A program made the position numbers and the translations under genes. 64,000 bases of DNA from Bacteroidota bacterium. Its GTDB lineage: Bacteria; Bacteroidota; Bacteroidia; 2-12-FULL-35-15. Numbering within the stretch: position 1 is the first letter of the stretch; the number at the start of each line of letters is the position of its first letter. Under the pieces are notes generated by a model. That model had not been told where the DNA came from, ran no database searches, and worked only from the letters and a program-made list of their open reading frames with translations. Below, one piece after another: positions 10,501 to 24,570 of the stretch. The DNA is taken from NCBI GenBank assembly GCA_947449315.1, contig CANFRC010000007.1:1-64000 (forward strand), in the 5' to 3' direction.

Positions 10501-10537
10501 AAAGAGCCTCGCAAAAAATTGCGAGGCTCTTTTTTTT
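10501..10537. terminator. Bidirectional rho-independent terminator
   Basis: AAAGAGCCTCGCAA (10501-10514), loop AAAA, TTGCGAGGCTCTTT (10519-10532): a 14-bp perfect stem with T-runs in both directions. It lies between the convergent GIN-domain and DUF6340 genes. Confidence 0.93.
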
Positions 10538-11534
10538 ATTCGTAGTTCAGTCTGTATTTTAATTTGTTAGCATATTCTCTTCCAACGCTGTTGCCATAAT
10601 CTTCATAGGCTTTTTTCGCCCATTGAAATGCTTCATTTGTTTTTCCTAACACTTCACAAGCAACAGCCATGTTTACGCATGCTCTCCCGGCATTTTTTCG
10701 GTTATTACTTTTTGTGAGTGGAGTCCATGTTTCCATTGCTCCTTCCCAATTGGATACTTCTGATTTACGGAATCCTGCTTTGAATTGTTGTTTTTCTTGC
10801 CCTTTTCCTCTTTTATACATGTCTCTTTTTACTGTGTAATACCCTGGCAAAAAGCGTTCAATGTATTCTTGTCCTGCAGCATAGGCGGTTTGTGGAAGTG
10901 CTTCTGGAGGAGGGATTGGTAAAACTCCTAGATCAAAATTCAAGTATTTTGTGCTTTGAGAGGCATCTATGATTTTTTGTACAGAAGGGTCATATAATCT
11001 CCAATAGCTTAATACGTTCATTCTAGCCTGACGAACTGGTGGAGGAGGAGACTGGCCTGAAATGACTGCACCAATCTGATTAGAAACATTGCTTAATAAT
11101 AAATCGGAATTAGAATCGAATGTTTCTAGGACTAATAGTGCATCAGCTTTAGAAGAGTCACAAATACTTTTAACAACATCCCAGGTTAATACTTCGGGAA
11201 CTTCACGGGTACCTGTTCCGTAACGTCTGCTATGTGAAGGAATAATGATGCTAATTCCCTGCCATCCATTCATGCGGTCAAAAACTCCTTTTAGACATTC
11301 GTCTGAAGCCTTTTTATCTGAACCAGCAATTTCACCAGACATTACAGCTTCTGCCATAGAATTGTTTTTTTCTTTCGGAGGAAGCGAACGGTTGATCACT
11401 ACAATATTGTGAATGTTATTGGGTAGCACCGCATTGGGTGCTGTCGGGTATTTTAAATTAACGTAACCGTATTTACTGCAACTTGAAAACAGAGCAGAAG
11501 CAATCAGCAGCAGCAGGAAGTAATATCGTTTCAT
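10536..11534 (-). CDS. DUF6340 family lipoprotein
   Basis: A 332-residue protein with a lipobox (ALFSSC, Cys19). Sequence features such as NIHNIVVINRSLPPKEKN, a proline run SPPPPVRQARMNVLSYW near 165, and a C-terminal TPR-like helical part (ACVNMAVACEVLGKTNEAFQWAKKAYEDYG) match the Bacteroidota DUF6340 family as I remember it. Function unknown; probably sits in the outer membrane facing the periplasm. A TAAATTTG -7 candidate lies at 11548-11555 on the same strand. It stands alone between two terminators. Confidence 0.75.
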   Translation of the reverse strand: MKRYYFLLLLIASALFSSCSKYGYVNLKYPTAPNAVLPNNIHNIVVINRSLPPKEKNNSMAEAVMSGEIAGSDKKASDECLKGVFDRMNGWQGISIIIPSHSRRYGTGTREVPEVLTWDVVKSICDSSKADALLVLETFDSNSDLLLSNVSNQIGAVISGQSPPPPVRQARMNVLSYWRLYDPSVQKIIDASQSTKYLNFDLGVLPIPPPEALPQTAYAAGQEYIERFLPGYYTVKRDMYKRGKGQEKQQFKAGFRKSEVSNWEGAMETWTPLTKSNNRKNAGRACVNMAVACEVLGKTNEAFQWAKKAYEDYGNSVGREYANKLKYRLNYE

Positions 11535-11713: not shown

Positions 11714-14700
11714 TTATTTCCCTCCCGGTTTCACTACTTCCACCCATTTACCCGGCTTACGTGAATTGATGGTATTGTCATACATCGCTTCGCAATAAAT
11801 AGTCGGTAAATAAAATCTTCCAATGTAAGCTGCATTCAATACAATTCGGAAGGTTTTTGATTTGTATGGTGAAATATCAAAGTAGGTATACACTCTGTCA
11901 TCACGGATGTCTTGGTAGTTAGGGTAATCACTTTTAATCACACTTTCTGCATCATCCATGCGTGTGTTATGAATTTCCCAACCACTCGGAAAAATCTGTG
12001 TAAGCGCCATCTGTAAATATTCACCTCGCACTCCCGGGTTCGTAATTTGTACTTCTGCAATGAAGTCCGTTCCTTGTTCCAACTTCGTTACATCGATCAC
12101 ACCGCCACTCATATTCGTGTAATTAATCGCTACGTTCAGGTCGTTGTCCACATTTGTTTGATCACCAGTTTCCGGAATCCCTTCTAAGATCACACGTGCA
12201 AAAATAACACCAGTGCCATTGTTGGTGATGGTCACATTAGCCGGTGCAGCACCTTTTAAGGTCATGTCAATTTGTTTCACTGGTAATTGTGTATTCAAGA
12301 TGATAGGCGCATTGGTGTTTATTTTTACATTGTATTTCATTTCTTTGCTAGCACCACCAGCTGTCGCAAATTTAGAAACAGCAATTAAACAATAGGCAGT
12401 TGTTTGTGTGCTCATCCAGTCGTTACGGCTCAATGCAACAGAAATACCTTTTACCAATGGTGCTGCTTTTGCTTTCATATCCAGCAATGTCAACGTTTCC
12501 AGGATCATTGCTTCGTCACGGTCGTTCGAACCATAACTGTAGCCCATTTCACAATACCTCGGAATAGCGGTAGTTAAATTGGAAATTAATTTTTTTGCTG
12601 TTTCCGGTTGCCCCACCTTTACATATGCTGCAGCCAATCGCCATTTCGCAGCCACAGATAAATCACCATATTCTTTCAGTCTATTCATTGCGCCTAGCTC
12701 AGGTGCTTTCGCTAAAGCAAGTGTGTACAAACGATAGGCTTGTTGTAGATCATTGTTATAATAGTAATAATTATCACGTGAATGAGGCGTCCAGTTGTTG
12801 GCCATATTTCGTTGATAACGTTTCCAGTTTTCGATCACACCAGGAGGTAAGGTATAGCCTTTCATTTCTGCTTCAAGCATAAAGTGACCTGCATAACTTG
12901 TTCCCCAATCGTCTGCTTCATATTGTCCGGCCCAATAGCTCATTCCACCGTTGGAGGTTTGGAATTGTTTGATGCGTTCAATACCTGCTTTGATATTTTT
13001 GTTGATGGCAATTTTGAAATCGCTGTTCAGTTCCATGATGTCGTTCAGATACAATTGCGGGAATACTGCTGAAGTCGTTTGTTCAATACATCCATGCGGA
13101 TACTCAATTAAATATTTCAAACGCTCTCCTAAATTAATAGGAGGGATGCTCGATAATTCGATGGTTCCTTTATTGGTTCCGGTCATGCCTGCAGGCGTGT
13201 AAGGTGAAGTCCAGGTCTTGCCTACTTCGATGACACTTTCAACTACATTGATCACTTTCGGATTCGGATTACGCACATCTATTTGAATGTCGTAATTCGC
13301 TTTCTCCGATCCGCTGGTGGCTACAATTTTTACTTTACCAATACCCAATTTAGAATTTACTTTCAATTTGAAAGTGACTACTTCATCACCGGTTTCTTTG
13401 AACGTGATTGGTTTAGATGTGCCATCCAATGCGCTGAACATACCATTCATCTGAATATTCACTTTTACATTCTTCACTTGTTTTTCCATCGCGAACACAT
13501 CAACTGCTAAATCCACTTCTTCTCCTGGACCTACTACACGCGGCAATGTTCCAAGAATCATCAATGGCTTGCGCACAGGTGTTGTTTTTTCGGCAGAGCC
13601 ATAGGCTTGTTTGTAACCCGCTATTACCATCGTTCTTACCGAACCCACATATTGTGGCATCATGAATTCATGTGTTTGTTTTTCTCCTTTTTTTAGGAAG
13701 TAAGGACCCATGAATTTCACCATCGGTTTAAATCGGTTGGCTTTGTTGCCTGCTTTGTTATTAATGTCACCGTCACCACCAATCGCTAAGATGCGCGACA
13801 GCTCTGCTCCGTAAGCACCCATTACTAAATCGAAAAGATCCCATGTTTTAACACCCAATGCTTCATGTGCATAAAAAGCACCCCAAGGATCTGGCGTTTT
13901 AAATCGTGTGATATCCAATAATCCTTCATCCACAATGGCGATGGTATAGGTCATTTCTTTTCCGTCTTTTTCAGAAACCGTTAAGCTTGATTTTGTTTCC
14001 GGACTCCATTTCTCAGGTGTCACGATCACCGGATTCAAATGTGTTTGAGGGTCTTCTACCGAAATAGGGATTACACCATACAAACGAATTGGTAAGTCGT
14101 TGATCGTTTGTGCATGCGGCTGAACAAGTGTTACGTTCACATACACGTTCGGTGTCATGTCAGCGGTCACAGGAAATTCGAAATTCGTTTCTCCTTTTTT
14201 TGTTTCTGCCCAATATGCTTTGATCACTTTCGAACCACTCTCTACACTTATCAATGCGCGACCTTCAGCACTGGAAGGGATTGTTAATTTTACTTTGTCG
14301 CCTACGTTGTATAATTTTTTATCACTCGAGAAGGATAATAAGGTAGCACCTTCATTTCCTTTCGGAGAGGAGCCTGCCCAAGATGGCCAATCGATGTAAA
14401 CGGTCTGTCCGGTGCGGTGTCCGCTTTCTTCATCGGTCACACAAACATAATAGCGTCCCCACTCTGGGCGGTTTACACGCAATACAAATTGTCCTTTACC
14501 ATTGGAAGTAGAGATCCATTGGTCTTGCAAAGGAGCTTTGTATTCATTACCCACATAATTGGCAAGATCACCATCATAGGAATCCCACCACCAGCGCCAA
14601 CCAACTTTATAAACCTGCACATGTAGTTTACTTTTCGAAATTGGTTTCCCATCGCTGTCAACCGTTGCTACTTTAATAATGTGATTGGTATCAGTTAGTA

Positions 14701-17350
14701 GCATGCCGCTGTATTTATTTCCTTCCGGTACTTTAATACCCACATAAGAAGTATAAGGAGAATACGGCATTGAGAATTGATCCACGCTGAAGGCACCGCC
14801 TTGTTCGAACACACGTACTTTAAAGTTCGCACGTAAGAGACCGGGAGCAGCATCTTTTACGGTAATATTCGGTTTGATGCTTGCCTTTCCTTGCTCATCG
14901 GTGTTGCCATCAAAAATAGTTTGCGCTTCCGATGTGAAACTTCTAGCCTGATCATCAAAATTATATTCTTCATATTTCTTGAAAGTGGTTTTTGTCTGGT
15001 TTAAGGTTACTTCCACTTTCGCATTTAAATTTTTCGCTATAGCACCTACCAACCATTTTACTTCCAGTGTTCCATTCTGATCTTTATGCGCAATAGAAAG
15101 TTTGTCCACGCTGAAATCCAATTTCAATTTCAATCGGTTCGGCATAATGGTTTCTATCTTGATGTTCTTTGTGAACCATGCACCGCCTACTTTTACACGA
15201 GCGGTCCAGTTTCCTGTCGGAGAACTTTTCTCGGTTGTTGTTGTAAAATTATAAAAACCATTAAGTCCACTAGTCTTCACCATCTTCCGGAACACTTGTC
15301 CTTGCGGATTTAATAATTCAAATTCAACAGGATGATTTTTTGGAAGGGTGTTTAATTTATCTTCGAGCATAAAGGTTAAGAACAAGGTGTCACCTGGACG
15401 CCATACTCCGCGCTCACCATAAATGAATCCTTTCAATCCTTTTTGTACTTCTTCACCAGACACATCAAACGCACTTAAAGATAAAGCTGAGCCATCATCT
15501 AATTTTAAGTAGCCGCGTTGTTTTCCTGTTTTTGCAACCAATAAGAAAGGTTTCTTTTTGAATGTGGCATTGCACATGCCATCGGCATCGGTCTTTAATG
15601 TCTTGATAACCTGTAGCTGATAATCCAACAACTCCATTGTTACATTCGGCATTGGTTTTGTCGTCACTAAATTAGTAACGATAAAATTCATAGATCCGTC
15701 AGTTCCTCGTTTAGCAATCAATCCAAGATTGGATGCCAATACATTACGACTTACTTCTCTGCTTCTGTAATAATATTTGCTGCAAGGATTATCACGTTGC
15801 TCATAACTGTCGTTGTAATTGTATTCCCCTTCGTCACCTTCATCATAATATTCACTTTCATTATAATAATAATCACCATAGTAATCCCAATCTTTTTCAT
15901 CGTCATCATCGGTGCCGTCATTTTTTATTTCGGTCATGTCGCTGCCGTTATCAAAAATAGCTGAGGACCCAGTATCTGTGCTGTCGCATTTATAGGTAGA
16001 GTATTCTTTTTTGAAACTGATGATGATCTTATAGATTGCACCCGGTTCAGTTTTAATTAACTGTGCTAGATCGAACGAATAGGTGTTCCATTTACCTAAG
16101 TCATTGGCGCTTTTTTGTGTCAGCTGAATTGTTTTCTTCAAAACGACTTTTCCTACGCGTCTCAATTCACGATCACCTTCCATATTATTTACCTGAAGGA
16201 ACTGTGGAATATTTTTTTCGTAGATCTTTAATATTTTCACATCAACAGCTTTTAAACTCACCGCTTTGAATGGAAATATCAAACCGTTGGAGTTTGGAAG
16301 AATCACACCGTTGCCGATTAACTGCACTTCCGGTTTTAGTTCTTCGAACAACACTTCCAACACATAACGTGAACGTAAAGGCATCCCTAAAATATTTTTT
16401 ACACCCAATTCTGCGGTGATGGTTTGTGCACCTACCAGTCTGTTTTGAGGATAGACGCGTACTTCATTGTCGGCAATAATATATTTTAATGGAGCACCAC
16501 CAGTAAGTGAAATCAATCCATCTAAATTTTGATTTTCTAGGATAGGGTCCGAAAACTGTATCACAGCATATTGTTCAGGACTTTGAATAACTTTCACATT
16601 CACTACTTTAAAATCACCTAGCGCAGGAATCTCGATCGTTTTACTTCCTTTTATATTACTCACATCCAATGCGTCACCATTCCAGGAAAGTTCTACTTTG
16701 CCCGGATTTTCAGTGCGTTGAATGCCATCTACTGTAAATCTGGAAACCGTTCTGTTGCCTTCATGGATCCAGGTGATAGGTAGAGATTTTCCATTTTGCT
16801 TTACCGTCACAGTATTTTCTATTGCTCGCGGATCTGCTACATCAGCTGTCGATAGCGTACCATCTAAACGTTGTACACGCAATTGTTTTTTATCTGTAGT
16901 AGTCATTCCATCTACAAAAACTTCAAACGATTGTTGCATCGTTTGAAAATCGAATTTGAATGTTTCAAATTCAGAAGGAACATCTAAGATGTTGGATAAA
17001 TAAAATTCAGCATCGTAGTGTGTCTTAGTAGGCAATGGTTTTTCGGGACGAAACTCAATTGTTCTGCTATCGATCCAAATAGCCACACCTTTTATATTCG
17101 GAGAAAATTCAAACAACGATTTATCGATTGGTTTTCCTATTTCGATTGGAGTAGTATTTTCATTGGTCAATAAAATTCGGATGGTTGATTCACATGAGAT
17201 GATTCCGGATGTATATGCGTTAATATACGCGCTGAATGCAGGATTCGTCTTTTCTTCATGAGAGGAGGAATGCAATTTGCTAAATACGGTAAGTCCAATC
17301 AGGCAGGCAGCAACAAGACCTGCAATGAATAATAACAGTCGTTTCGACAT
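11714..17350 (-). CDS. Bacterial alpha-2-macroglobulin with thioester motif
   Basis: A 1878-residue periplasmic protease trap of the bacterial alpha-2-macroglobulin family (MG domains, bait region, thioester domain). The thioester motif is intact: YPHGCIEQ with Cys1421 and Gln1424, which cross-link to an attacking protease. The N-terminus has a hydrophobic leader; VAAC (Cys16) could be a lipobox, but the next residues are hydrophobic, so a plain membrane anchor is also possible. Typical blocks are visible (KGFIYGERGVWRPGDTLFL; YTIAIVDEGLLDITRFKTPD; KPLMILGTLPRVVGPGEEV). Residues ~470-520 hold an unusual insert rich in Asp, Glu and Tyr. No penicillin-binding protein 1C is adjacent, unlike the enterobacterial arrangement; the divergent neighbour is a Prc-type protease. 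Confidence 0.95.
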   Translation of the reverse strand: MSKRLLLFIAGLVAACLIGLTVFSKLHSSSHEEKTNPAFSAYINAYTSGIISCESTIRILLTNENTTPIEIGKPIDKSLFEFSPNIKGVAIWIDSRTIEFRPEKPLPTKTHYDAEFYLSNILDVPSEFETFKFDFQTMQQSFEVFVDGMTTTDKKQLRVQRLDGTLSTADVADPRAIENTVTVKQNGKSLPITWIHEGNRTVSRFTVDGIQRTENPGKVELSWNGDALDVSNIKGSKTIEIPALGDFKVVNVKVIQSPEQYAVIQFSDPILENQNLDGLISLTGGAPLKYIIADNEVRVYPQNRLVGAQTITAELGVKNILGMPLRSRYVLEVLFEELKPEVQLIGNGVILPNSNGLIFPFKAVSLKAVDVKILKIYEKNIPQFLQVNNMEGDRELRRVGKVVLKKTIQLTQKSANDLGKWNTYSFDLAQLIKTEPGAIYKIIISFKKEYSTYKCDSTDTGSSAIFDNGSDMTEIKNDGTDDDDEKDWDYYGDYYYNESEYYDEGDEGEYNYNDSYEQRDNPCSKYYYRSREVSRNVLASNLGLIAKRGTDGSMNFIVTNLVTTKPMPNVTMELLDYQLQVIKTLKTDADGMCNATFKKKPFLLVAKTGKQRGYLKLDDGSALSLSAFDVSGEEVQKGLKGFIYGERGVWRPGDTLFLTFMLEDKLNTLPKNHPVEFELLNPQGQVFRKMVKTSGLNGFYNFTTTTEKSSPTGNWTARVKVGGAWFTKNIKIETIMPNRLKLKLDFSVDKLSIAHKDQNGTLEVKWLVGAIAKNLNAKVEVTLNQTKTTFKKYEEYNFDDQARSFTSEAQTIFDGNTDEQGKASIKPNITVKDAAPGLLRANFKVRVFEQGGAFSVDQFSMPYSPYTSYVGIKVPEGNKYSGMLLTDTNHIIKVATVDSDGKPISKSKLHVQVYKVGWRWWWDSYDGDLANYVGNEYKAPLQDQWISTSNGKGQFVLRVNRPEWGRYYVCVTDEESGHRTGQTVYIDWPSWAGSSPKGNEGATLLSFSSDKKLYNVGDKVKLTIPSSAEGRALISVESGSKVIKAYWAETKKGETNFEFPVTADMTPNVYVNVTLVQPHAQTINDLPIRLYGVIPISVEDPQTHLNPVIVTPEKWSPETKSSLTVSEKDGKEMTYTIAIVDEGLLDITRFKTPDPWGAFYAHEALGVKTWDLFDLVMGAYGAELSRILAIGGDGDINNKAGNKANRFKPMVKFMGPYFLKKGEKQTHEFMMPQYVGSVRTMVIAGYKQAYGSAEKTTPVRKPLMILGTLPRVVGPGEEVDLAVDVFAMEKQVKNVKVNIQMNGMFSALDGTSKPITFKETGDEVVTFKLKVNSKLGIGKVKIVATSGSEKANYDIQIDVRNPNPKVINVVESVIEVGKTWTSPYTPAGMTGTNKGTIELSSIPPINLGERLKYLIEYPHGCIEQTTSAVFPQLYLNDIMELNSDFKIAINKNIKAGIERIKQFQTSNGGMSYWAGQYEADDWGTSYAGHFMLEAEMKGYTLPPGVIENWKRYQRNMANNWTPHSRDNYYYYNNDLQQAYRLYTLALAKAPELGAMNRLKEYGDLSVAAKWRLAAAYVKVGQPETAKKLISNLTTAIPRYCEMGYSYGSNDRDEAMILETLTLLDMKAKAAPLVKGISVALSRNDWMSTQTTAYCLIAVSKFATAGGASKEMKYNVKINTNAPIILNTQLPVKQIDMTLKGAAPANVTITNNGTGVIFARVILEGIPETGDQTNVDNDLNVAINYTNMSGGVIDVTKLEQGTDFIAEVQITNPGVRGEYLQMALTQIFPSGWEIHNTRMDDAESVIKSDYPNYQDIRDDRVYTYFDISPYKSKTFRIVLNAAYIGRFYLPTIYCEAMYDNTINSRKPGKWVEVVKPGGK

Positions 17351-17711: not shown

Positions 17712-19811
17712 ATGTTTAATTTTACCCTTATGACAAGAACTAAAAAATTATTATTCCTGATCCCTGTTGCAGTGGCAATGGTTTCAGCGACCTATATTGT
17801 TCAATCAGATAAAGAAGCAGCCATCGATCAAATTTTGATGCAAAGCCTTAAAAACGTTCATTATGCTCCTATGGAGGTGAACGATAAATTTTCCGAAAAG
17901 GTTCTTAAGCTTTATCTGCAGCGCCTCGATTACAATAAGAAATTCCTAATTCAGTCCGATGTGGATGAACTTCAGAAATTCAATCATTCCATCGATGATG
18001 ACGTTAATAACGGAACCTTCATCTTTTTTGATAAGTCGCTTGAGATCATCAATAAACGTGTGGATGAAGCAAAAAGTTATTACACGGATATTCTCTCTAA
18101 ACCTTTTGATTTTAATTCCGATGAGGAAGTGCAGTTGGATGCCGAAAAGCTGACCTACGCTAAAAACAAAGATTCTTTAAAAGAAGAGTGGCGTAAATCC
18201 TTAAAATACCAAACGCTTTCTCGTGTTATAGAATTGATGGATAACCAAACAAAAGCAAAAGAGAAAAGCGATACGGTAAAGATCAAAACCAGAGAAGAGT
18301 TGGAAATCGATGCACGTAAAAAGATACTAAAGAACAATGACGATTACTTTAAACGAATTAAAGAATTCGATCGTGACGACCGTATTGAAATTTATTTTAA
18401 TGCGATAACAGGAATCTATGATCCGCACACTGAATTCTTCGCACCGAAAGCAAAAGCAAACTTTGATATCAGCATGAGCGGGCAATTAGAAGGAATTGGA
18501 GCTCAACTGCAGGAGAAAGATGGTTATATTAAAGTTAGCAGTATTGTTCCTGGAAGTGCGTCTTATAAGCAAGGACAATTAAAAACGGGAGACATTATCT
18601 TAAAAGTTGGACAAGGAGCTGCTGATCCTGTGGATGTGGTAGACATGAAACTGGATGATGCTGTTCAATTGATCAGAGGTAAAAAAGGTACGGAAGTGAG
18701 ATTGACCGTTAAGAAGCCGGATGGAAGTGCGATCATTATTCCAATCATCCGCGATATTGTTGTTATGGAAGATTCGTATGTTCAATCGGTGATCTTGAAA
18801 GGAAAGAAAAATATTGGCTACATTAAACTTCCATCATTCTATGCAGATTTTAATGGTAAAGGCGGAAGGAGTTGTTCGATAGATATGAAGAAAGAACTTC
18901 AGAAGCTGAATGAAGAAAAAGTGGATGGTATTGTTTTAGATCTTCGTTACAATGGCGGTGGTTCTTTGTCAGATGTTGTGGATATGGCGGGATTATTCAT
19001 TGATACGGGAGCAGTTGTTCAGGTTAAACAAAGAGAGGGGAAAGCACAAGTACTGAGAGACCGAGCAAGGGGTGTTGTGTATAATGGTCCTTTAACGATC
19101 ATTGTGAATTCTAATTCGGCTTCGGCTTCTGAAATTATGGCAGCAGCCATGCAGGATTATCACCGTGCAGTCATTGTTGGGACTTCACCCACATCTTTTG
19201 GAAAAGGTACCGTGCAACGTTTTTACGACTTGGATGATTACGTTCCACCCGCTTATGCAAATGTTAAACCTTTAGGCTCCGTAAAAATCACTACCCAGAA
19301 GTTTTACCGTATCAATGGAGGTGCCACACAGTTAAAAGGAGTGATCCCTGATATTACCCTTCCGGATCCGTATTATTTATTGGATCAAGGCGAAAAAGAA
19401 CAAGATTATCCGATGGCCTGGGACGAGATCAGTCCGGCAGGATACATTCCTGTTAAGCCTTCCTATTCCTTAGAAAAGTTGAAAGCTAACAGTGAAGAAC
19501 GTGTAAAAAACAGCGCAGGTTTTGCGATATTAAATGAAACGGCAAAACGTTTGAAGAAACAAAAAGATGATACCATGGTATCCCTGAATTTTGATAAATA
19601 TGTTGCGGAGCAAAAGCAATACAAAGACGAATCTAAAAAAATGGATGAGTTGGATAAAGAAATCCCTGGATTCGATGTGGTTGCTTTAAAAGCGGATGCA
19701 TTTTCTAATAGCGATACTATTAAAGTTAATCGAAATAAAGAATGGTACAAAGCCATTAAGAAAGATATCTACCTGCATGAAACGATCTCTATCATGGATG
19801 AGATGAAATAA
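17712..19811 (+). CDS. prc: Carboxy-terminal processing protease, Prc/Tsp type (S41)
   Basis: A 699-residue protease with an N-terminal membrane/signal segment (KLLFLIPVAVAMVSATYIV), helical N-domain, a PDZ domain (~264-350, with GSASYKQGQLKTGDIILKVG), the S41 catalytic core and a lysine-rich C-terminal domain as in Prc. The catalytic dyad is visible: Ser473 in SASASE and Lys498 in FGKGTVQ, 25 residues apart as in E. coli Prc. It should degrade or trim periplasmic and lipid-anchored substrates from their C-termini. The first ATG (17712) and one at 17730 are both possible; the later one gives a more usual leader. It is divergent from alpha-2-macroglobulin, itself a protease trap. Confidence 0.95.
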   Translation: MFNFTLMTRTKKLLFLIPVAVAMVSATYIVQSDKEAAIDQILMQSLKNVHYAPMEVNDKFSEKVLKLYLQRLDYNKKFLIQSDVDELQKFNHSIDDDVNNGTFIFFDKSLEIINKRVDEAKSYYTDILSKPFDFNSDEEVQLDAEKLTYAKNKDSLKEEWRKSLKYQTLSRVIELMDNQTKAKEKSDTVKIKTREELEIDARKKILKNNDDYFKRIKEFDRDDRIEIYFNAITGIYDPHTEFFAPKAKANFDISMSGQLEGIGAQLQEKDGYIKVSSIVPGSASYKQGQLKTGDIILKVGQGAADPVDVVDMKLDDAVQLIRGKKGTEVRLTVKKPDGSAIIIPIIRDIVVMEDSYVQSVILKGKKNIGYIKLPSFYADFNGKGGRSCSIDMKKELQKLNEEKVDGIVLDLRYNGGGSLSDVVDMAGLFIDTGAVVQVKQREGKAQVLRDRARGVVYNGPLTIIVNSNSASASEIMAAAMQDYHRAVIVGTSPTSFGKGTVQRFYDLDDYVPPAYANVKPLGSVKITTQKFYRINGGATQLKGVIPDITLPDPYYLLDQGEKEQDYPMAWDEISPAGYIPVKPSYSLEKLKANSEERVKNSAGFAILNETAKRLKKQKDDTMVSLNFDKYVAEQKQYKDESKKMDELDKEIPGFDVVALKADAFSNSDTIKVNRNKEWYKAIKKDIYLHETISIMDEMK

Positions 19812-19947: not shown

Positions 19948-20814
19948 ATGAATTTAAAGATCACAGACCTTTCTAAAACCTATTCGAATGGGTTGAAAGC
20001 ATTAAGCAATGTTAATATAGAGATCGGCAGCGGCATGTTTGGGCTGTTAGGGCCAAACGGTGCAGGCAAATCTTCTTTAATGAGAACAATTGCCACCTTA
20101 CAGGAGGCCGATAGCGGAAGTATAATGTTGGGTGATTTGGATGTGCTAAAACATAAGGATGAAGTAAGAAAAGTATTGGGATATCTTCCTCAGGACTTTG
20201 GTTTTTATCCGAAAGTTTCAGCTTGGGATATGATCAATCACTTTGCAATTCTGAAAGGAATCTCTAATCCAAGAGAACGAAAAGAGATATGTGAAGCTCT
20301 TTTGAATCAAACGAATTTGTTTGATGCACGCAAACGTAACATTGGTGATTATTCCGGCGGAATGCGTCAGCGTTTCGGTATTGCTCAGGCATTACTTGGT
20401 AATCCTAAATTAATTATTGTGGATGAGCCTACAGCAGGATTAGATCCTATGGAACGCAATCGTTTTCACAATTTGTTGAGTGAGATTGGAGAAAATATCA
20501 TTGTGATCTTGTCAACGCATATCGTTGAAGATGTGCGTAACCTTTGTTCAAATATGGTCATCATGAATCAGGGGACTGTGCTGCTTTCCGGAAAACCTGC
20601 GCAAGCGATAGAAGATATGAAAGGGAAGATTTGGATGAAGCTAATCGATAAAGAAGAATTAGAAGCTCATAAAGCAAACCACCGGGTGATCTCAACGAAG
20701 GTTGTGGAAGGTAAAATTCAGATTCATGTATATCATGCATCCCAACCGGATGCATCGTTCATACCATTGATCGCTGATTTGGAAGATGTTTATTTTGCTA
20801 CGATTACTAATTAA
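19948..20814 (+). CDS. ABC transporter ATP-binding protein
   Basis: A 288-residue nucleotide-binding subunit. Walker A is GPNGAGKSS (~34-42), the Q-loop lies in GYLPQDFGFYP, the signature is YSGGMRQR and Walker B is LIIVDEPTAGLD. The C-terminal ~65 residues are an added domain of unknown role. It precedes the permease-peptidase fusion by 63 bases and is clearly its energising partner. The pair resembles ABC-2 systems of Bacteroidota in which the permease carries a peptidase; substrate unknown. Confidence 0.95.
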   Translation: MNLKITDLSKTYSNGLKALSNVNIEIGSGMFGLLGPNGAGKSSLMRTIATLQEADSGSIMLGDLDVLKHKDEVRKVLGYLPQDFGFYPKVSAWDMINHFAILKGISNPRERKEICEALLNQTNLFDARKRNIGDYSGGMRQRFGIAQALLGNPKLIIVDEPTAGLDPMERNRFHNLLSEIGENIIVILSTHIVEDVRNLCSNMVIMNQGTVLLSGKPAQAIEDMKGKIWMKLIDKEELEAHKANHRVISTKVVEGKIQIHVYHASQPDASFIPLIADLEDVYFATITN

Positions 20815-20877
20815 GTAATTGAAGACGCATTGGAACTTACAGCCTTATTTAACCCAATACCTTAATTAACTTTAAAT

Positions 20878-23800
20878 ATGTTCAAAGAAATTTTTCTTTT
20901 CGAATTAAAGCTTTGGTTCAAACGACCAGCCGTATATATCTTCTTCCTTGTTTTTTTCTTGTTCTCTGTATTCGGAATGCTTGCAGCAGGAGGGTTTTTG
21001 GGTAATAGCGATAACGACTCCAATACAATTGTTAACTCCGCAAAAGCGATCACCGATTTTATCTCTAAAATAAATACAGGCTTTGTCGGCTTGATCATTC
21101 TGATCACCATCATTGCTCCAGCTGTTTATAAGGATTTTCAATACAACATGCATCCTTTATTATTTACTAAACCGATCAGCAAATTCGGTTATATGATCGG
21201 ACGATTTGGGGCAGCCTTTCTGGTTGCTTTGTTTGTATTGACCGGTAGTTTGTTGGGACACATGATGATGTGTGCGATCCTTGGTGGATCTGATCCGCAC
21301 AGATTTGGGCCTGTTCATCTGATGAATTATATAGAGCCATTTATTTATTTTGTAATCCCGAATACCTTATTAGTTGGAGCCATTTTCTTTTCATTAGTGA
21401 CTTTCACACGCAATATGATTGCTGGTTATGTAGGATGTATTGCTTTTGTAATCGTGAAAAACATTGCCAATGCTTTGTTGGCCGATATCGATAACCAAAC
21501 ATTAGCAGCTGTGTTGGAACCTTTCGGAGCTCAGGCTTTCCGGAGCTTAACAAAGTACTGGTCGCCCGATGAACAAAATAATTTACGTATTCCTTTTGAA
21601 GGTGTATTGATGTTAAACCGTATGGTTTGGTTGGCGATAAGCATTGGTATCACAGCGCTTACCTATTACAGATTTCAATTCAGTCAGTTTAATAATCCAA
21701 TCTCTTTCTTCAGCAGAAAAAATAAAAAGGAAATGCTTTCGCTGGCATCGGCTCCAGTACTTGCTTTGTCAGATATCCCAAAAGCAGTTCAGAATTTCAC
21801 AACAAAATTCAGTTGGTATCAAACCTGGTTCCTGGCAAAATTTGAGTTCAATAAAATAGTAAAAAGTATTTTCTTTCTGATCATCGCATTATTAGCCGTT
21901 GCTTCACTTATGTTGGTTGTTCCTCTTGGTGGCGCCATTTATGGAACTCCAACGTACCCCTTAACCTATCAGATCTTAGAGGTTGGTGGTGCCTTGTTCC
22001 GTTTATTTTTAAACATCATTATTATTTTTTATGCAGGTGTTTTAGTATGGCGCGAACGTGATGCAAAAGTTGAAGAACTTGTTGGTACAGCTCCGATAAA
22101 ATCGTTCGTGAATTTTACTTCTAAGTTAATTGCGTTGATCATGGTGCAGGCTGTTTTACTTGTTGTGATTATGATCACCGGGATGATGATCCAGATGTAT
22201 TATGGGTATTATAAAGTGGAGGTGTTGCAATACATTAAAGATCTTTTTGGAATGCAACTGATCGGTTTGGCATTGACCTGTGTGCTTACTTTGTTTATTC
22301 AGACTATTTTTAATAACCGATATGTAGGATATTTTATATCCATCCTTATTCTCGCTATTCCTATCGTTTTCGAACTGTTAGAATGGAGAAACCAAATGGC
22401 TTTGTTTAATAGCAGTGGCCCGGAATTGCCTTATTCAGATATGAACGGATATGGACATATCATCTTTTCTTTTTTCATATTTAAGTTGTATTGGGTTGGT
22501 TTTGGAATGATCCTGATTGTGATATCCAATTTAATGTGGACACGTGGAAAAGAAAAAGGTTTTAAAAGTAGAGTGCGAATTGCAAGATCTTTATTTAATA
22601 GAAAAGCAAAAATTGTAATGACACTTTCACTGCTTGTTTTTTTATTTAGCGGCGGTTTCATTTATTACAATACAAATATTCTTAATAAAGTTGTCTCAGC
22701 AAAAGCAGAAGAAAGATCGCAAGCTGAATTCGAAAAAAAGTACAAGCGGTATACAAAAACGCAACAGCCAAGAATTGTTTCAGTAAATTGGAATGTGGCT
22801 ATTTTCCCACAACAGCTGGGTGTTAAGATGAATGGTTTTTATATTCTGAAAAACAAAAGCAACAAGAACGTAGACAGCATCATTTTAAATTTAACTACAC
22901 GTATTCATGTCAATGAATTGAAATTTGAAAAAGCTGCCATGAAAGTGGTGGATGATATTACAAATGGATTCTATATTTACAAACTTTCTCAGCCTTTGAA
23001 ACCGGGTGATTCATTGAAGCTGGATATGTCCATCGACTATTTTCCGAAAGGATTCAAAAGTACTGAAGCCGGAACGGCAATTGTATACAACGGAAGTTTC
23101 TTTAACAGTGAATTGATGCCAAGCTTAGGTTATAATGAACAAGGGGAGTTGACAGAAGCGGCTACCCGTAAAAAATATAACTTACCTAAAAAAGAACGCA
23201 TGTCGAATGTGAACGATAGCATTGCAAGGATGAATACGTATATCAGCAACGATGCCGACTGGATTAATTTTGAATGTGTAGTAAGTACTTCAGGCGATCA
23301 GACTGCAGTTGCTCCAGGGTATCTCATCAAGCAATGGAATGAGAATGGAAGAAATTTCTTTCACTACAAAATGGATTGCAAGATTCTGAACTTCTACTCC
23401 TTTTTGTCAGCGCGTTATGAAGTGAAACGCGACAAATGGATGGAACCATCAACCGGCAAATCGGTTGCTATAGAAATCTATTACAACAAAGGACATGAAT
23501 ACAACTTGGATCGCATGATAAAAGGAATTAAAAAGTCGTTGGATTATTATACCCAAAACTTTAGTCCTTATCAGCACCGACAAGTCCGCATATTAGAATT
23601 CCCACGTTATGCAACATTTGCACAATCGTTTCCCAACACCATTCCCTTTTCGGAAGGGATAGGATTTATTGCGAAGGTGAATGATAAAGACCCGCTGTCC
23701 ATTGATTATCCGTTTTATGTAACAGCACATGAAGTGGCACATCAGTGGTGGGCACATCAGGTGATTGGAGGGAATGTGCAAGGTTCTACCTTGATGTCGG

Positions 23801-24570
23801 AAACAATGGCACAATATTCTGCGTTGATGGTAATGGAAAAAGAATTCGGAAAACCTGCTATGAAGAAATTTCTGAAATATGAAATGAGAAATTATTTGCA
23901 GGCAAGAGCATTGGAAGCAAAAAAAGAATTGCCTTTGAAGTTAGTGGAGAATCAACAATACATTCATTATAACAAAGGAAGTGTGATCATGTATGCTTTG
24001 AAAGATTATATCGGAGAAGATTCGTTGAATGCAGCACTTCGTAAATACATTGCGAAGGTAGCTTACCAGGAACCACCGTACACGAATTCAATCGAATTTA
24101 TAAGTTATCTGAAAGCCGCTACTCCAGACAGTTTAAAATACATCATCAATGATATGTTCGAATCGATCACGATGTATGAAAATAAAACAACTAAGTGTTC
24201 CTACACAAAAACAAAAGATGGAAAATATCTGGTGAAATTCTCCGTGGAAAGCAAAAAGATGAAAGCGGATAGCATCGGAAAAATGAAAGAGGAATTGATC
24301 GCAGATTGGATTGATATTGGAGTGTTTGGCAGCAAAGAAGTGGATGGCAAAAAAACAGATACGGAGTTGTATCTTCAGAAGAGAAAGATCACAAAGAGCA
24401 AAATGGACTTTGAAATCATGGTAAATGAAGAGCCAGTTAAAGTTGGAATCGATCCGTACAATAAATTGATTGACCGTACTCCGGATAATAATATGAAGTC
24501 GTTCAATGGAAATGACAAGGAAGAGAATGATGCAGGAGGAATATCTGTGCAGGTGAGTTCGGGGAAGTAG
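20878..24570 (+). CDS. ABC-2 permease fused to M1 family metallopeptidase
   Basis: A 1230-residue protein. Residues ~15-270 and ~325-560 are two ABC-2-type membrane blocks, each with about six hydrophobic segments (for example FVGLIILITIIAPAVYKDF and YVGYFISILILAIPIVFEL). A further membrane helix near 580-600 (IVMTLSLLVFLFSGGFIYY) leads to a large soluble part with an M1 peptidase domain: zinc motif HEVAHQWW at 951-958 and a downstream glutamate in SETMAQY. The duplicated membrane region can by itself form a full transporter with the upstream ATPase. The peptidase should face the periplasm. Function is unknown: it might process the transported substrate or sense cleavage products. Confidence 0.93.
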   Translation: MFKEIFLFELKLWFKRPAVYIFFLVFFLFSVFGMLAAGGFLGNSDNDSNTIVNSAKAITDFISKINTGFVGLIILITIIAPAVYKDFQYNMHPLLFTKPISKFGYMIGRFGAAFLVALFVLTGSLLGHMMMCAILGGSDPHRFGPVHLMNYIEPFIYFVIPNTLLVGAIFFSLVTFTRNMIAGYVGCIAFVIVKNIANALLADIDNQTLAAVLEPFGAQAFRSLTKYWSPDEQNNLRIPFEGVLMLNRMVWLAISIGITALTYYRFQFSQFNNPISFFSRKNKKEMLSLASAPVLALSDIPKAVQNFTTKFSWYQTWFLAKFEFNKIVKSIFFLIIALLAVASLMLVVPLGGAIYGTPTYPLTYQILEVGGALFRLFLNIIIIFYAGVLVWRERDAKVEELVGTAPIKSFVNFTSKLIALIMVQAVLLVVIMITGMMIQMYYGYYKVEVLQYIKDLFGMQLIGLALTCVLTLFIQTIFNNRYVGYFISILILAIPIVFELLEWRNQMALFNSSGPELPYSDMNGYGHIIFSFFIFKLYWVGFGMILIVISNLMWTRGKEKGFKSRVRIARSLFNRKAKIVMTLSLLVFLFSGGFIYYNTNILNKVVSAKAEERSQAEFEKKYKRYTKTQQPRIVSVNWNVAIFPQQLGVKMNGFYILKNKSNKNVDSIILNLTTRIHVNELKFEKAAMKVVDDITNGFYIYKLSQPLKPGDSLKLDMSIDYFPKGFKSTEAGTAIVYNGSFFNSELMPSLGYNEQGELTEAATRKKYNLPKKERMSNVNDSIARMNTYISNDADWINFECVVSTSGDQTAVAPGYLIKQWNENGRNFFHYKMDCKILNFYSFLSARYEVKRDKWMEPSTGKSVAIEIYYNKGHEYNLDRMIKGIKKSLDYYTQNFSPYQHRQVRILEFPRYATFAQSFPNTIPFSEGIGFIAKVNDKDPLSIDYPFYVTAHEVAHQWWAHQVIGGNVQGSTLMSETMAQYSALMVMEKEFGKPAMKKFLKYEMRNYLQARALEAKKELPLKLVENQQYIHYNKGSVIMYALKDYIGEDSLNAALRKYIAKVAYQEPPYTNSIEFISYLKAATPDSLKYIINDMFESITMYENKTTKCSYTKTKDGKYLVKFSVESKKMKADSIGKMKEELIADWIDIGVFGSKEVDGKKTDTELYLQKRKITKSKMDFEIMVNEEPVKVGIDPYNKLIDRTPDNNMKSFNGNDKEENDAGGISVQVSSGK

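Follow-up and report, generated by a model that had tools for sequence, protein, structure and literature searches.

The window analyzed here, a stretch of 64,000 nucleotides from a Bacteroidota bacterium, carries a gene for an ABC ATPase followed by a gene for an ABC-2 permease fused to an M1-fold zinc peptidase, and these two genes form an obligate and widespread cassette. The residues retained in and lost from its active site suggest that the M1-fold domain is probably a working metallopeptidase which does not act as an aminopeptidase. The reading we favor, tentatively, is that of an ATP-driven system which would deliver or expose a peptide-like substrate to this tethered peptidase. Its main rivals are a peptidase gated by ATP without any transport, as in FtsEX, and a non-catalytic docking domain. 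Databases already contain this architecture, under the name of an aminopeptidase. What is new here is the obligate pairing of the two genes, the loss of the aminopeptidase determinant and the association with regulators. In the open literature searched, a body of text which leaves subscription journals mostly outside, no description or functional account of the fusion was found.

An ABC ATPase paired with a permease-peptidase chain

The cassette consists of two open reading frames on the forward strand, spaced by 63 bases, which encode an ABC ATPase of 288 residues and then a permease-peptidase of 1230 residues (Table 1). The translation of the ATPase contains GPNGAGKSS, YSGGMRQR, IIVDEP and STH, which we take to be its Walker A, signature, Walker B and H-loop motifs, respectively. 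Its best PDB matches are ABCA1, ABCA4, ABCA3 and ABCA7, then NosF. Its top NCBIfam match is GldA, yet with 176.1 bits, far under the family cut-off of 402.6, and an assignment to gliding motility was rejected on this basis. A role in a known defence system was also rejected, as PADLOC returned no match for the fusion and only ATPase-type models for the ATPase.

Table 1. Features of the cassette in the window (aa, residue numbers of the fusion protein).
Feature	Position	Strand	Basis
ABC ATPase, 288 aa	19948..20814	+	Pfam ABC_tran (PF00005), E 3.1e-28
Fused ABC-2 permease / M1-fold zinc peptidase, 1230 aa	20878..24570	+	one uninterrupted ORF, Pfam, AF2
Permease block 1, about aa 1-266, six TM helices (read from model)	20878..21675	+	AF2, hhalign to block 2
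Permease block 2 and 13th TM helix, about aa 303-600	21784..22677	+	Pfam, model helices
M1 domain I, N-terminal beta, about aa 630-855	22765..23442	+	model, PepN/LTA4H ranges; boundary approximate
M1 domain II, catalytic, about aa 856-1095	23443..24162	+	Pfam 885-1070; most conserved part of the chain
Loop F914-A-Q-S-F918 replacing GAMEN; Ser917 at the Glu position	23617..23631	+	alignments
Zinc motif HEVAH, aa 951-955	23728..23742	+	translation, MAFFT alignment
Third zinc ligand Glu975, X19 spacing	23800..23802	+	alignment
Catalytic Tyr1031 in Y-N-K-G	23968..23970	+	alignment
M1 domain III, beta-sandwich, about aa 1096-1196	24163..24465	+	model, PepN alignment

Pfam assigns ABC2_membrane_4 (PF12730) to residues 320-491 of the fusion protein with 44 bits (cut-off 27). 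According to hhalign, residues 1-300 share homology with residues 303-606 (probability 98.4, E 6e-15), which indicates that both permease blocks are real. These blocks, together with PF12730, PF00005 and an ATPase gene located upstream in 68/68 frames, identify the pair as ABC-2 permease domains with their ABC ATPase. The AF2 model of residues 1-1196 has a pLDDT of 90.7 and a pTM of 0.89, and we count 13 TM helices on it. In the resulting topology, lysine and arginine number 28 in the predicted inside loops vs 9 in the predicted outside loops, an excess which places the peptidase outside the inner membrane. When the full-length model was used for structure search, the matches listed were all M1 structures, none of them covering the permease fold. 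Collectively, these data bear out what the first-pass annotation had read from the letters, namely a single chain with two permease blocks and an extracytoplasmic M1 domain, preceded by its cognate ATPase.

Spread of the cassette

When the permease alone was used as query against 198 Bacteroidota genomes, it was found at 67 places in 48 genomes, always in frames of 1070-1273 residues, and thus no permease lacking the peptidase was found among these 67 places. As the architecture is identical in 67/67 matches, a chance join or an assembly error was rejected. An ATPase homologue lies upstream on the same strand in all 68 frames read; these frames, which come from 67 stretches and were not selected on the zinc motif, are the 67 permease-only places and locus L049. 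In the sample of the window's own genus, the fusion is present in 22 of the 29 genomes (19 whole copies and three cut at contig ends), and the remaining seven gave ordinary M1 matches only.

Relatives had been expected in Bacteroidota, which is correct and too narrow. Indeed, when GTDB contigs were searched with the pattern AHE[VLI][ASG]HQW, 80 loci came up under titles from Bacteroidota, Pseudomonadota (including Massilia, Xanthomonas, Duganella and Pseudoalteromonas), Acidobacteriota, Myxococcales, Calothrix, Armatimonadetes, Delongbacteria and Planctomycetota, the taxonomy being that of the record title and several records, Calothrix and Planctomycetota among them, being MAGs which could be misbinned. 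Since these 80 loci were chosen by their zinc-motif pattern, they are unusable for measuring zinc-site conservation. Plasmid records, among others from Granulicella, Hymenobacter and Sphingomonas, also carry the fusion, several copies being annotated as "M1 family aminopeptidase", and a distant relative is found in Zymomonas.

Two genomes, G120 and G167, contain four permease-peptidase matches each, which suggests paralogues with different substrates. Among the loci examined, no clear two-gene, unfused version was found. The copy on the Sphingomonas plasmid is annotated as two CDS. A candidate natural split in Hymenobacter coccineus (L107), made of two overlapping frames, was rejected and attributed to a single frameshift in a draft contig.

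Fold and conservation of the peptidase

The Pfam model Peptidase_M1 (PF01433) matches residues 885-1070 with 48.4 bits (cut-off 27.7) and was recovered in 70/70 family members scanned. Residues 603-1196, modeled alone with AF2, reach a pLDDT of 95.3. On this model (Foldseek / VIA-align), E. coli PepN matches over 492 residues with a Z of 30.7, the Z values of LTA4H and of the two-domain Deinococcus enzyme are 28-30, and EryP is also among the structure matches. Similarly, a comparison of profiles (hhalign) against ten solo M1 enzymes gave a probability of 99.9 and an E of 1.8e-37. PepN has about 866 residues and the alignment extends no further than its residue 537, so that the fusion protein retains M1 domains I, II and III but no C-terminal helical domain IV. 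In some members whose length is only about 1050-1100 residues, domain III is absent too.

Mean identity to the window protein is 52% for the catalytic domain, 38% for domain I and 30% for the permease in 117 distant members, and 35% for domain III in 107 members. The 117 are those, out of 129, whose permease identity is under 60% and which have enough aligned columns; many come from the zinc-motif scan, a bias which favors the motif itself and hardly the whole domain. The catalytic domain is more conserved than the permease in 115 of these 117 members, and domain II is thus the most constrained part of the chain, the pattern expected of a domain kept for its catalysis. Within the membrane part, conservation is 0.43 for extracytoplasmic loops, 0.43 for TM helices and 0.38 for cytoplasmic loops, values which would fit an M1 domain docked on the outer loops.

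In FtsEX, ATP hydrolysis mechanically controls cell-wall hydrolases. By analogy, the ABC module of the cassette might transmit a mechanical signal to a periplasmic peptidase without transporting anything, the permease standing in for the lid domain. The obligate fusion, the stronger constraint on the peptidase than on the permease, the absence of domain IV and the conserved extracytoplasmic loops all speak for such gating, and the pTM of 0.89 agrees with a peptidase that sits in a defined position on the permease. However, ABC-2 blocks and the ABCA/NosF matches of the ATPase include true transporters, and we consider this explanation unlikely, even if it survives best among the alternatives. 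About as improbable is an ATP-gated periplasmic endopeptidase in which the ABC module would replace the M1 lid and open, position or feed a zinc peptidase devoid of aminopeptidase specificity. If true, it would be a widespread way to spend cytoplasmic ATP on proteolysis beyond the inner membrane.

Active site and loss of the GAMEN glutamate

The residues expected of an M1 zinc site are all found (H951, E952, H955, E975 and Y1031), with a spacing of 19 instead of 18. The first-pass annotation had noticed that the glutamate following HEVAH lies one residue beyond the usual 18, and E975 is indeed separated from the motif by 19 residues. A lineage oddity was rejected as the cause, the spacing being family-wide: it is 19 in 121 and 20 in nine of 130 aligned members, that is, 129 members and the window protein, with both sample sets mixed and members under 1000 residues dropped. 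The same annotation had proposed that substitution of the catalytic tyrosine or of the GAMEN glutamate would betray a pseudo-enzyme. The outcome is divided: the tyrosine and all zinc ligands are present, and the window protein does not look like a pseudo-enzyme from its sequence, but the GAMEN glutamate is substituted by Ser917.

Three alignments set GAMEN against the loop F-A-Q-S-F and its glutamate against Ser917: phmmer with ERAP2, MAFFT with the solo M1 enzyme of the same genome, and a profile HMM with ERAP2. The loop is thus located by sequence and profile alignment and not by superposition, and hhalign moves it by three residues relative to the other alignments; the window protein contains no glutamate between E907 and E926 (908-925). 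Across the 130 full-length members, the GAMEN-Glu column holds serine in 97, alanine in 25, asparagine in 3, leucine in 2, glycine in 1, threonine in 1 and one gap, and glutamate in none. A glutamate occurs one column ahead in 3/130 members, and somewhere inside the loop 910-923 in 13/130. In the 68 frames found via the permease alone, G(A)ME was not found upstream of the zinc motif in any, vs a Met-Glu of GAMEN kept in 10/10 solo M1 enzymes of the control alignment. Thirteen solo M1 proteins were read for this control, L145, L146 and L153 being left out of the ten-enzyme alignment. L153 carries GGME. L145 (742 residues) and L146 (695 residues) are stand-alone M1 proteins with HExxH-X18-E and without GAMEN, and GAMEN loss is therefore not unique to the fusion family.

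In PSA, GAMENW and Glu180 of domain I shut one end of the cleft and bind the N-terminus of the substrate, as described in the available part of PMC10343166. The region of domain I corresponding to this second anchor is not securely alignable in the fusion protein; N738-G739-T/S-F is conserved there. According to the database reading, the fusion is an ordinary M1 aminopeptidase which would trim peptides arriving in the periplasm, joined to a peptide transporter. This would account for the record names, for the PF01433 score above cut-off, and for a fold and a zinc site as in PepN. We nevertheless find it unlikely: the loss of the GAMEN glutamate argues against aminopeptidase activity, though not against all peptidase activity. 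Because glutamate is absent from this position in all 130 members and G(A)ME from all 68 frames, whereas the ten controls keep Met-Glu, the label "M1 family aminopeptidase" is itself questionable and probably wrong.

In other M1 enzymes, the GAMEN glutamate also takes part in catalysis. In LTA4H, the E271Q substitution abolished function wholly or partly (excerpt of PMC3405069), and simulations of PfA-M1 assign this residue a part in catalysis as well (excerpt of PMC3244404). Its loss could thus entail little or no hydrolysis instead of a new specificity, and the dead or near-dead M1 fold would then serve an exporter for substrate binding or docking. In addition to the loss of the glutamate in all members, two pseudo-enzymes are found among the 68 frames, L053 7467-10745 (-) with RELAK and L197 4948-8709 (+) with QQLAQ. 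In both, the zinc motif and the catalytic tyrosine are lost and the fusion and the ATPase are retained, from which the domain appears useful beyond catalysis in those members. This explanation is, however, no easier to accept than the aminopeptidase one, since HExxH, the third glutamate and the tyrosine are all kept in 66/68 permease-only frames (64 by pattern and two, with Y-A-R-G, on inspection) and since the catalytic domain would hardly be the most conserved region without catalysis. Hydrolysis by a peptidase that is not an aminopeptidase stays our preferred reading.

Gene neighborhood

Neighboring genes were counted at 95 loci with simple ORF calls, which are poor in GC-rich genomes, and the profiles used to detect LytTR and LytS were derived from these same neighbors. 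On these terms, LytS-type kinases account for 21/345 neighbor genes within two genes of the cassette vs 2/780 at distances three to eight (14, 7, 0, 0, 1, 1, 0 and 0 at gene distances 1 to 8). A LytTR regulator lies at most three genes away in 17/95 loci, 13 loci having both LytS and LytTR, and these regulator genes are mostly on the opposite strand (16/22). A DUF2975 gene is found at most three genes away in 8/95 loci. L055 (5077-6872) and seven similar loci have this DUF2975 membrane protein upstream of the cassette, and in L055, the one locus checked, a 68-residue HTH_26 protein lies between the DUF2975 gene and the ATPase. Regulation by LytS/LytTR or DUF2975-HTH fits a signal-switched system, responding for instance to an envelope-active peptide, in the minority of loci concerned. 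Most loci are without any recurrent neighbor, and LytS/LytTR and DUF2975 regulator genes are absent beside the window's own cassette.

In the window, the ATPase gene immediately follows one for a Prc-type tail-specific protease (TSP_NTD, PDZ, S41 and DUF3340; 17712-19811, +), and a DUF4440 protein is encoded downstream of the fusion gene. A Prc homologue is also present in L063, L006, L008 and the Saprospiraceae MAG L070, so this association of Prc with the cassette may predate the genus. Further upstream, the window encodes a bacterial alpha-2-macroglobulin (bMG3, MG2, bMG5, bMG6, A2M_BRD, A2M, TED and bMG10; 11714-17350, -) with CIEQ, presumably a thioester-like motif, which a DUF6340 protein adjoins at 10536-11534.

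Among the first 25 of 131 neighbor families listed (126 neighbors scanned), no precursor, RiPP or biosynthetic partner gene recurs, and membership of a RiPP cluster was rejected. For this reason, and because the GAMEN motif reported for NosP in the available text of PMC13039773 is absent from the fusion family, it is quite improbable that the cassette is a post-export maturase removing the leader of a secreted peptide outside the membrane, as an outside counterpart of PCAT, even if AplP and NosP cleave RiPP leaders (PMC10885120 and PMC13039773, in part).

Proposed mechanism

In the scheme we favor, delivery to a tethered zinc peptidase, two copies of the ATPase would associate with one permease-peptidase chain, a stoichiometry suggested by the presence of two permease blocks in each chain. 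By binding and hydrolyzing ATP, the ATPases would move the permease, which might, with less confidence for this step, expel or extract a peptide-like substrate of hydrophobic or amphipathic character. This substrate would be handed at the outer mouth of the permease directly to the zinc peptidase, and the absence of a lid domain IV would allow export or extraction and cleavage to proceed as one step. With neither a lid domain nor an anchor for the N-terminus, the cleft should take longer chains and cut them internally; the predicted peptidase most likely cuts internal bonds or another non-amino-terminal position. The data establish the parts, their pairing, the conserved catalytic residues and the missing GAMEN, and the topology by prediction; the activity, specificity, direction and substrate of the system are what we infer.

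The fusion is found in 48 of 198 sampled Bacteroidota genomes, in up to four copies each, in addition to titles from other phyla, and some records are named for an aminopeptidase activity to which the active site no longer appears suited. If the scheme is true, the cassette would be a common and unstudied machine coupling cytoplasmic ATP hydrolysis to periplasmic peptide cleavage.

Comparison with known systems

The cassette resembles ABCA-type and NosDFY-type transporters in its ATPase matches and in its two ABC-2 blocks. To our knowledge, neither ABCA nor NosY has a peptidase domain.

With M1 metallopeptidases such as PepN, ERAP, LTA4H and M1dr, the fusion family has in common the fold of domains I and II (and III), HExxH, the third glutamate and the catalytic tyrosine. 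It differs by the replaced GAMEN glutamate, the X19 instead of X18 spacing, the missing domain IV and the attached permease. Deinococcus radiodurans M1dr is also without the C-terminal domain, as stated in the available part of PMC10343166.

The M1 fold is likewise common to AplP, EryP and NosP, proteases of lanthipeptide and microviridin pathways. AplP and NosP have been reported to cut RiPP leaders as endo- and aminopeptidases, a precedent for endopeptidases among M1 enzymes, and the accessible portions of both reports describe, unlike in the fusion family, no fusion to a transporter (PMC10885120, PMC13039773). NosP is reported with GAMEN and HExxH-X18-E (PMC13039773, in part), a combination which the fusion family does not have.

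Finally, PCAT / AMS exporters also combine a peptidase and a transporter in one chain. In PCAT, a papain-type C39 domain is N-terminal to the transporter (PMC10885120, in part), and Pfam found no C39 domain in the fusion protein. In the fusion, unlike in PCAT, the zinc peptidase is C-terminal and extracytoplasmic, and the ABC-2 permease to which it is attached is served by a separate ATPase.
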